This document shows, in pieces, positions 35,944 through 40,467 of a DNA stretch of 40,657 bases. The notes under the pieces are model-generated. The model was not told the DNA's origin and did no database searches. It was given only the letters and a program-made list of their open reading frames with translations. Each line of letters begins with the position of its first letter. The first letter of the stretch is position 1. The translations under genes were made by a program, and so were the position numbers. This stretch comes from Verrucomicrobiota bacterium (GTDB lineage Bacteria > Verrucomicrobiota > Verrucomicrobiia > Limisphaerales > VHDF01), in assembly GCA_016871495.1 (NCBI GenBank), contig VHDF01000039.1, positions 1 through 40,657 of the forward strand, in the 5' to 3' direction.

Positions 35944-36005
35944 CCGGCGGGTGAAGAACGAGGCCCTTCCATGCTCTCCACGCGCCAGGTTCCCTTCGCC
36001 GCCCC

Positions 36006-37676: not shown

Positions 37677-39146
37677 CTAAGTCAGTTGGAATTCGGGTGT
37701 GCAGAGGATCAGTCGAATCACGTGGCGCAGGTCTGCGTCATCCAAGGGGGAACGCGCAGCGAGGAATTCGTCGATTGACCTTCGCTGAGCGACTCCGAGC
37801 GGCATGCCCAGGAGGCGGCGGGACAGGGCGGAAATCGCGAGTTCGGGGTCGCGGCGTTCTTCTGGAGTCAGGAGGGGTTCAACGCGAAGGGCCTGGGCTT
37901 GGCGATTCCTCCTTGCGCGCCGGGGACGATTCATGTCGTTCGTCGCGCGGGCAGGCCGCGCGGATGGAGCGAGTTCACCCGAGACCAGGTAGGCCGCGAG
38001 TTGGTAGCGATTCATCAGACTGGAAGCATTGATCCAGGAAAGGCCGCCTTCCCAACCTTTGACATTGGGTGGGGCGAACAAATCCTGGCCCAAGAGGCGG
38101 AGCGCTTGAGAGGAAGCGGGGGCCGGTGGGAGAGGGCATTCGAGCGCCTGGACTGTGCCGACGAGCCATTGAACCGGACTTTTGACTTGAGCTCGAACGA
38201 GGTCTGTCGCGTAGAAAGCTTCCGAGAGGAAGATCTCGCGCAACCATGGACGGAACGATTGTCCATGGGCATGGAAACGATCTGCCAGTTGTTGTTGCCA
38301 CGCGGTCGCGGGCGGTTGGCCGGCGAAGAAGTACCAGAGCTTTCCCGTGATCCACAAGGAGGACTGGCGTGAGGTGGCGACTTGACGGACGATATCCTCG
38401 CCTTTCCAGGGACCGGTTTGGTCCAGGACCGTTTTCGAGCCGGGATCGTGCTGGCGTGGCCGGAACGCGAACGACTGGCGGCTGGCGTCCAAACTCCAGC
38501 CGGTCAGAGCGCGGGCCGCTTCCGCGACGTCTTTTTCGGAGTAATGGCCTTCACCGAGCGCGAACAATTCGAGGAGCTCGCGGGCGAAGTTTTCGTTGGG
38601 GTGACTGCGGCGGCTTTGCGCCTGGTCGAGCCAGATCAACATGGCGGGATCCTTGGATGCGGCTTCGAGAAGGCTTGGCCAAGTTGCCGCGCCGAGTTCG
38701 CGGAAGGTCTGGTTTTGGCGCCACATGAGGTAAGCGTCGCGGACTTTTTCCATACTGGTGGCGAAATGGCCGTGCCAGAAGAGGGCGAGTTTTTCCTGCA
38801 ACGGCTGGGGGCCGAGGGTCATTCGTTGGAGCCACCACTCGCGGAGACTGAGCAACCGGTCCTGTTGGAGGCGACGTTCCTCGCGTTGAAGTTCCTGCCG
38901 TTTTTCAGGGGAGGCTTGGCGGTAGGTGCGTAACCGTTCGGCTCGGGTGGGGTCAGGCTGAGCCCAGGGGGGTGGAGGAAAAGGATCTTTGACGGGATCG
39001 AAATGGACGAGGGAGTCCACGGCCGCGGCGTGTTTTTGGGCGGCCAGGCGTGCCACGCTGCCTGGACTGCCGCCGAACCCTGCTCGGGCGAGGAGGTGGG
39101 TGGCGGCGGCGTGGTTCCAGCGCTCGGCGGGCAAGGGCTTGAGCAT
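37677..39146 (-). CDS. DUF1800 family protein
   Basis: 489 residues. DUF1800 signatures are present: HLLARAGFGGSP near the start, LFWHGHFATSMEKVRDAYLM, HPNENFARELLELFALGEGH, YSEKDVAEAARALTGW, PPNVKGWEGGLSWINAS and a C-terminal LILCTPEFQLT. No N-terminal signal peptide is visible, unlike the exported DUF1501 partner just downstream. A basic stretch (RPRRARRNRQAQ, about 408-419) in the C-terminal part is unusual. The biochemical role is unknown. It is divergent from the EamA gene across the inverted-repeat element. Confidence 0.95.
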   Translation of the reverse strand: MLKPLPAERWNHAAATHLLARAGFGGSPGSVARLAAQKHAAAVDSLVHFDPVKDPFPPPPWAQPDPTRAERLRTYRQASPEKRQELQREERRLQQDRLLSLREWWLQRMTLGPQPLQEKLALFWHGHFATSMEKVRDAYLMWRQNQTFRELGAATWPSLLEAASKDPAMLIWLDQAQSRRSHPNENFARELLELFALGEGHYSEKDVAEAARALTGWSLDASRQSFAFRPRQHDPGSKTVLDQTGPWKGEDIVRQVATSRQSSLWITGKLWYFFAGQPPATAWQQQLADRFHAHGQSFRPWLREIFLSEAFYATDLVRAQVKSPVQWLVGTVQALECPLPPAPASSQALRLLGQDLFAPPNVKGWEGGLSWINASSLMNRYQLAAYLVSGELAPSARPARATNDMNRPRRARRNRQAQALRVEPLLTPEERRDPELAISALSRRLLGMPLGVAQRRSIDEFLAARSPLDDADLRHVIRLILCTPEFQLT

Positions 39147-39223: not shown

Positions 39224-39401
39224 GCCCGGAAATTTCATACCCCTTTTGCTGCGACTTGCGGCGAGCCCGACTGGCGTTGTTGGCCTCGCTTTCCTCACCG
39301 GGCAGTATGTTCTCCTACAGCCCGGGTCGGAAGAGCTTCGTCCGCCTAGCCAGTCGGGCTCTCGCCGCGTCTCGCGACGAAGGTGTATGAAATATCCGGG
39401 C
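39224..39401. repeat. 178-bp imperfect inverted-repeat element
   Basis: The left arm (39224 to about 39275) begins GCCCGGAAATTTCATAC and ends GCCCGACTGGC. The right arm (about 39350-39401), read in reverse complement, begins GCCCGGATATTTCATAC and also ends GCCCGACTGGC. The arms are roughly 52 bases and about 80% alike by eye, with a non-palindromic centre of about 74 bases. No protein is encoded. It looks like a MITE or a REP/BIME-type element between two divergent genes. A run of nine G (39212-39220) precedes it. Confidence 0.75.
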
Positions 39402-39460
39402 TAGAAAAGGTGGGGAATGGTGCTTGGTGTGAGTTGAGCCGTTCGTTACAACAGCGCGGC

Positions 39461-39486: not shown

Positions 39487-40467
39487 ATGAATACCACGCT
39501 CTATCCCCAAGCGATGCGCATGCTCGCGATGTGCACGGCTTTTTGGGCATTAAGTTTTCCCGCCATGAAAGCGCTCTCGTTGACCCAGCAGAAGATGGCG
39601 CCTGAGACGAGCGTTTGGTTTATCACGGCCTTGAGCGTGTTTTATCGTTTTGTGCTGGCGGGAATATGCCTGGTCCCCTGGGTGTTGAGGGCGCGGCCTT
39701 GGTTGACACGTTCCGAATTGAATCAAGGGTTGTTGATTGGATTGATCGGCGGGGTTGGGGTGGTGTTGCAGATGGACGGGCTTTCTTACACGGATGCATC
39801 GACCTCGGCCTTTCTGACTCAGTTTTATTGCGCGATCATTCCAGTTTGGATGGCTTGGAAGCACCGTCAATTGCCTTCGCGGCGGGTGGTGTTGTGTGTT
39901 GTGTTGGTGCTGGCCGGGGTGGCTATTTTGTCCGGATTCGATTGGAGGAAAATGAGCTTCAGGCGGGGTGAGTTGGAGACCTTGCTCGCTTCGGTGATCT
40001 TTACGGGACAGATTCTTTGGCTGGGGCACCCCGGGTTTGCGGGGAATCGGACGCTGCCGTTTTCGATGGTCATGTTTTTCACGATGGCCCTGACGGCACT
40101 GCCGGTGGCGGTGGCGGCGTCGCCGGGAGCTCCGGCGTGGGTCGGCTTGTATGCGCATCGGGGGGCGTTGACGAGTCTGGCGGTGCTGGTTTTTTTGTCT
40201 GCCTTGGGGGGCTATTTGTTGATGAACCATTGGCAGAAGCATGTGCCGGCGACGCACGCGGGGATGATCTATTGCCTGGAACCGGTGTTCGCGAGCGCCT
40301 TTGCGCTTTTCTTGCCGGGTTGGTTTTCCGAGTTTGCCGGGATTGAATACTCGAACGAAAAGCCTGGCTGGCGATTGGTGGCGGGAGGCGTTTTGATCAC
40401 GCTGGCCAACGCGGGGTTGCAGTGGGGGTCGGGCGAGAATCGCAACAAAGAGGGACCCCGGGGGTAG
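39487..40467 (+). CDS. EamA family (DMT) transporter
   Basis: 326 residues with about ten hydrophobic helices arranged as two EamA halves. The first half has FWALSFPAMKALSL and FYRFVLAGICLVPWVL, then GVVLQMDGLSYTDASTSAFL. The second ends with HAGMIYCLEPVFASAFALFL and VAGGVLITLANAGLQ, which match the conserved 'EP' helix and last helix of drug/metabolite exporters. It probably exports a small metabolite; the substrate is unknown. No Shine-Dalgarno sequence is obvious and a hairpin lies directly upstream of the ATG. Confidence 0.9.
   Translation: MNTTLYPQAMRMLAMCTAFWALSFPAMKALSLTQQKMAPETSVWFITALSVFYRFVLAGICLVPWVLRARPWLTRSELNQGLLIGLIGGVGVVLQMDGLSYTDASTSAFLTQFYCAIIPVWMAWKHRQLPSRRVVLCVVLVLAGVAILSGFDWRKMSFRRGELETLLASVIFTGQILWLGHPGFAGNRTLPFSMVMFFTMALTALPVAVAASPGAPAWVGLYAHRGALTSLAVLVFLSALGGYLLMNHWQKHVPATHAGMIYCLEPVFASAFALFLPGWFSEFAGIEYSNEKPGWRLVAGGVLITLANAGLQWGSGENRNKEGPRG

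Follow-up and report, generated by a model that had tools for sequence, protein, structure and literature searches.

The 176-bp palindrome that lies between two divergent genes in the window (the whole stretch of 40,657 nucleotides that was analysed) is very probably a MITE, gene-less and with IS1380-type ends, that is mobilised by an IS1380 transposase; we put the probability of this reading at about 0.88. The first-pass annotation had described an inverted repeat of 178 bp at 39224–39401, and had proposed either a REP-like structure or a non-autonomous element that depends on a distant transposase. Alignment of other copies set the ends of the element at 39225 and 39400, and assigned the outermost base on each side of the 178 bp to the flanking 4-mers. 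The features of the region are as follows.

39225–39400, no strand assigned: near-complete palindrome of 176 bp, very probably a MITE, defined by its inverted repeat and fold and by 12 further copies of equal length that come from five other genomes and align with no gap
39225–39240, plus strand: left terminal inverted repeat (TIR), CCCGGAAATTTCATAC; an identical end occurs on IS1380 elements
39258–39275, plus strand: inner stem, 5′ side (helix 2)
39299–39324, plus strand: apical hairpin, CGGGCAGTATG-TTCT-CCTACAGCCCG, second only to the TIRs in conservation and the best conserved stretch of the core
39349–39368, plus strand: inner stem, 3′ side (helix 2)
39385–39400, plus strand: right TIR, GTATGAAATATCCGGG, with 16-bp identity to the TIRs of the IS1380 elements L112 and L254 and to the right end of L248
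39221–39224, plus strand: left flanking 4-mer, CAGG; target duplication degraded or replaced
39401–39404, plus strand: right flanking 4-mer, CTAG; target duplication of the YTAR type
37677–39146, minus strand: gene for a DUF1800 protein, the left neighbour, with its start (39146) 78 bp from the element
39487–40467, plus strand: gene for an EamA-like transporter, the right neighbour, with its start (39487) 86 bp from the element

The inverted repeat described in the annotation was recovered by a repeat finder, as outer arms of 22 nt (39224–39245 and 39380–39401, 91% complementary) and inner arms of 13 nt (39263–39275 and 39349–39361, 100% complementary). As single-stranded DNA, the region folded to −56.2 kcal/mol, compared to −37.3 ± 3.2 kcal/mol for shuffled sequences (z = −6.0), and none of 200 shuffles folded as well. 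The two 16-bp TIRs differ by one mismatch, and the terminal 17-mer had 2 matches within the window, against 0.02 expected. No convincing gene was found inside the 176 bp, and the short open reading frames (ORFs) that cross the element are incidental. The element is within the size range of MITEs (70–300 bp) and carries no transposase gene, and its TIRs are within the 15–30 bp given for MITEs.

The annotation was also right that the element has no gene of its own and separates two divergent genes, here those for the DUF1800 protein and the EamA-like transporter. From this position, it may plausibly influence both. The element occupies the place where both promoters would be expected, as would a regulatory palindrome bound to these genes (serving the DUF1800/EamA intergenic region as terminator, attenuator or operator), but we consider this explanation extremely improbable: copies sit at unrelated sites in many genomes, and searches by consensus at the window element showed neither a sigma-70-like promoter nor a terminator.

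The annotation had suggested looking for further copies in this genome and its relatives, for conserved ends and for target-site duplications. A nucleotide query returned copies in both places. The 5.06-Mb draft genome to which the window belongs contained a single complete copy of the 176-bp class, and partial copies of the window element on C28 (left 100 bp, 95%), C26, C52 and C81. Twelve other full copies were found, in G003, G054, G056, G317 and G319; all are exactly 176 bp long and align to the window copy gap-free. Matches to the class occurred in 9 of the 320 genomes of the order, including that of the window. The ends are also conserved, as the terminal 17-mer had 81 matches at up to two mismatches in the own genome, compared to 0 for the reversed control. 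Paired inverted ends in this genome delimit size classes of 132, 176 and ~231 bp, and the 132-bp class has at least 40 copies at ≥92% identity. Thus, dispersed copies are numerous, as is characteristic of MITEs, with the 12 full copies elsewhere and tens of copies of the sister classes in the own genome.

When GTDB contigs were scanned for an exact 19-mer, at least 109 stretches matched, in Verrucomicrobiota, Planctomycetota and Proteobacteria, the last including Endozoicomonas, Salinisphaera and Nitrosospira. The TIR-bounded sizes among these matches peaked at 176 bp and at 160–162 bp, and the latter class is found mostly in Proteobacteria. The window element had no match to plasmids; the 162-bp class had a match on one Endozoicomonas plasmid. 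A coding function was rejected, as lengths of 176–183 and 160–162 bp show no constraint to be divisible by three and the ORFs that run across the element are incidental. Separately, five elements of 266–275 bp (L203, L127, L149, L176 and L189) have the same outer arms around a different insert (GAGCAGGTGCGAGCGAGTCAA...), and look as if one MITE core was replaced or inserted into.

Identical 4-mers flanked 59 of 116 non-redundant elements, whereas 10,000 shuffled pairings gave 29.7 on average and at most 49. The target duplication is 4 bp long, with the consensus YTAR (CTAG, CTAA, TTAG, TTAA), and copies of the 176-bp class with intact duplications include ones with TTAG/TTAG and CTAA/CTAA. The two 4-mers at the window copy differ (CAGG on the left, CTAG on the right), so its own scar is not intact, and the copy looks old. 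Target-site duplication, a further mark of MITEs, thus characterises the family and copies of the same class, and is degraded at the window copy itself.

A dispersed host repeat in the own genome exists both with and without the 132-bp element. Empty forms have 7 nt between two fixed motifs (GAACCAG, for example), whereas the occupied forms have 141–146 nt, mostly 142 or 143, where 143 would be expected (7 + 132 + 4), in a comparison of ten long forms of which one (L009) is a chance pairing and some others may have spread jointly with the host repeat. Besides the palindromic elements, a second dispersed repeat (GGGGCGACGAAGGGAACCAGGCGCGTGGAGAGCATGG and its flanks) is a landing site of 132-bp elements. 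It is present at 35969–36005 of the window and at many loci of the own genome (L002, L010, L014 and L032), and the copy in the window is empty.

Which transposase uses these ends? Long elements that share these TIRs and the flanking YTAR repeats code for DDE transposases, which belong to the IS1380 family (Pfam PF13701). These include L103 (1593 bp, E = 3e-166), L207 from Parasulfuritortus cantonensis (1569 bp, E = 3e-162) and L112, which is internally deleted (1801 bp, E = 3e-97). We also surveyed the PF13701 genes of the order, which were chosen without regard to these ends. IS1380 copies with such ends were flanked by CTAG on either side (L240, L243 and L247), by TTAA/TTAA (L232) or by TTAG/TTAG (L233), and in three copies the repeats were altered (L237, L244 and L248). 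L254, which has the same length and ends as L112, had CTAG/CTAG and a TIR match of 16/16. The other PF13701 genes of the order were without such ends, and the TIR-matching IS1380s are therefore a subgroup. TIR identity to the element was 16/16 for L112, L254 and the right end of L248, and 15/15 for L103 and for L207, in each case at one end. The element and the IS1380 copies also agree in the length and type of the target-site duplication, with CTAG/CTAG, TTAA/TTAA and TTAG/TTAG all present at IS1380 copies.

Traces of such an IS are present in the own genome. On contig C48, the C-terminus of an IS1380 transposase is followed by CATGAAATATGCGGG and CTAG, and contigs C44, C114, C156, C70 and C20 terminate in the opposite IS end, as expected when a repetitive IS interrupts assembly. 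This assembly, which breaks at IS ends, yielded no complete IS1380 transposase. Of the eight genomes other than that of the window that carry the 176-bp class, one (G263) was among the PF13701 matches; because most carriers have no detectable transposase, the link to IS1380 rests on ends and scars and not on co-occurrence. Beyond the TIR, the core resembled no interior part of the IS1380s examined, and a simple deletion derivative of these elements was rejected, as they have only the TIR in common with it.

The non-autonomous element and distant transposase proposed in the annotation are thus supported by the copies, the conserved ends, the 4-bp duplications and the IS1380s with matching ends. 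We propose that an IS1380 (DDE) transposase produced elsewhere would bind both 16-bp TIRs and excise the 176-bp unit, which would then insert at a YTAR tetranucleotide (CTAG, CTAA, TTAG or TTAA) and duplicate the target. We infer that the window copy was moved in trans by such a transposase, and anciently.

A small divergent ORF (KVQAIRPKGQNPKLYVYFPIPLAAAIGLQPGELVEWELLDRGELHLVRK) appears to be present in some of the Verrucomicrobial IS1380s, namely L244, where the element starts at 398, and L112, where it is divergent from the transposase. It had a weak MazE/AbrB-like match (E = 0.003) that is below the cut-off. The IS end in the own genome resembles the C-terminus of this ORF.

An IS5 origin was suspected from the YTAR target and was rejected, as the TIR-bounded long elements are PF13701 and the own genome's sole DDE_Tnp_1 match to pass the cut-off (on C117) was, by eye, without such an end. 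This PF01609 (DDE_Tnp_1) gene (L093, positions 1069–2013 of C117) is truncated by the contig end, and no IS1380-type end is visible upstream of it.

The REP-like alternative in the annotation did not hold up. An origin as a REP/REPIN-like element, with a RAYT (Y1 tyrosine transposase) as its mover, would suit the five Y1_Tnp genes of the own genome, and also the sister 132-bp elements, which hold two GTAG-tagged hairpins of the REP type described in Verrucomicrobia (PMC3733652). However, these TIRs were absent from the flanks of all five RAYT-like Y1_Tnp loci, a GTAG-tagged hairpin pair is lacking in the window element, and neither 4-bp target duplications nor 16-bp TIRs are among the features of REPs. 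Although the element resembles REP/REPIN with RAYT in being a dispersed palindrome, its ends and target duplications are those of a DDE transposon, of the IS1380 type, and we regard movement by a RAYT as very improbable.

Elements of the 176-bp and 160–162-bp classes form a single end-to-end hairpin, with a typical symmetric pairing of 0.6–0.8 of bases, unlike the 132- and 231-bp classes, which form no end-to-end hairpin. In counts that include relatedness, and with structures derived from the identical alignments, the window class was paired in 95.6% of cells (slid controls, 34–44%), with 7 double-sided pairs and a covariation of 0.099 compared to 0.058 when shuffled, and the 160–162-bp class was 91.7% paired, with double-sided changes in 28 of 60 pairs and a covariation of 0.344 compared to 0.173 when shuffled. 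Several unpaired motifs of the 160–162-bp class are invariant. The hairpin persists, with compensatory changes, both in Verrucomicrobiota and in the 160–162-bp class of mostly Proteobacteria, and over its full length it belongs to the design of the 176-bp class.

It is possible, if somewhat doubtful, that the core is itself under selection as a structure (as RNA, or as a hairpin of DNA with a part in transposition or regulation) and that the TIRs are simply its vehicle. The pairing and covariation in both classes and the invariant unpaired motifs would fit this, as would the length of 176 bp, constant without indels in five other genomes, and a core unrelated to the IS interior. The elements also avoid long ORFs, which by a crude ORF call overlapped 16 of 45 elements compared to 86% of random placements. 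However, template switching between the arms of a palindrome also creates paired changes, and such arm-by-arm correction leaves selection on the hairpin unproven. By the same crude ORF call, a count of 9 to 5 showed no preference of the elements for either strand with respect to adjacent genes. The poor fold of the broad alignment A1 comes from its mosaic of halves that belong to different subtypes. A known RNA was rejected, as neither the window element nor 12 carrier loci had a match in Rfam. We consider it rather unlikely that the core of 160–180 bp is a functional structure (a structured RNA, or else a hairpin in the DNA for use by the transposase or the replication machinery) that rides IS1380 ends in several phyla, with its pairing kept by selection, instead of a decaying remnant. 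The hairpin may aid transposition, may protect or influence neighbouring transcripts, or may do nothing beyond arm correction.

How does the element compare with known systems? IS1380 insertion sequences have the same 16-bp TIRs (CCCGGATATTTCATA(C)) and 4-bp YTAR duplications, but the element is 176 bp long, has no transposase and has a core unrelated to the IS interior. IS1380 (PF13701) is a bacterial relative of the eukaryotic piggyBac, a relation that YTAR fits: piggyBac targets TTAA, with TTAG and CTAA variants, and has CCC-type ends (PMC10813416). There are well-known MITEs whose ends are IS-like, among them RUP with IS630, YPAL and ERIC (PMC2229807, PMC3733652). RUP of Streptococcus pneumoniae, a MITE of IS630-Spn1, is likewise short and gene-less with TIRs common to a named IS (PMC2229807), but has TA targets and an IS630 transposase where the element has YTAR and IS1380. 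YPAL (RU-2) of Yersinia is also a palindromic mobile repeat, of ~168 bp and mostly intergenic (PMC2229807), but its inverted repeats are internal and its target-site duplications are 3–26 bp long, whereas the element has terminal repeats and a fixed 4-bp YTAR. A literature search, made largely outside the subscription journals, found neither the end sequence nor IS1380 MITEs in Verrucomicrobia. We class the element as a MITE with IS1380-type ends, set apart by the conservation of its full-length hairpin.

Through the analysis, a single transposase family is linked to unannotated palindromes of Verrucomicrobiota, Planctomycetota and Proteobacteria. The cores of MITEs usually decay. The fixed length and double changes seen here give a testable case of whether a hairpin core aids the spread of a MITE or acts on neighbouring genes.

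The sister 132-bp elements (for example L009:857–988 and L015:1386–1516) carry, in at least 40 places, the GTAG-tagged hairpins GTAGGCCGCGTGCCCTCACGCGGC and GTAGGCCCGGTGTCCTCACCGGGC between TIRs of the IS1380 type. They are apparently a REP pair carried by a DDE transposon.
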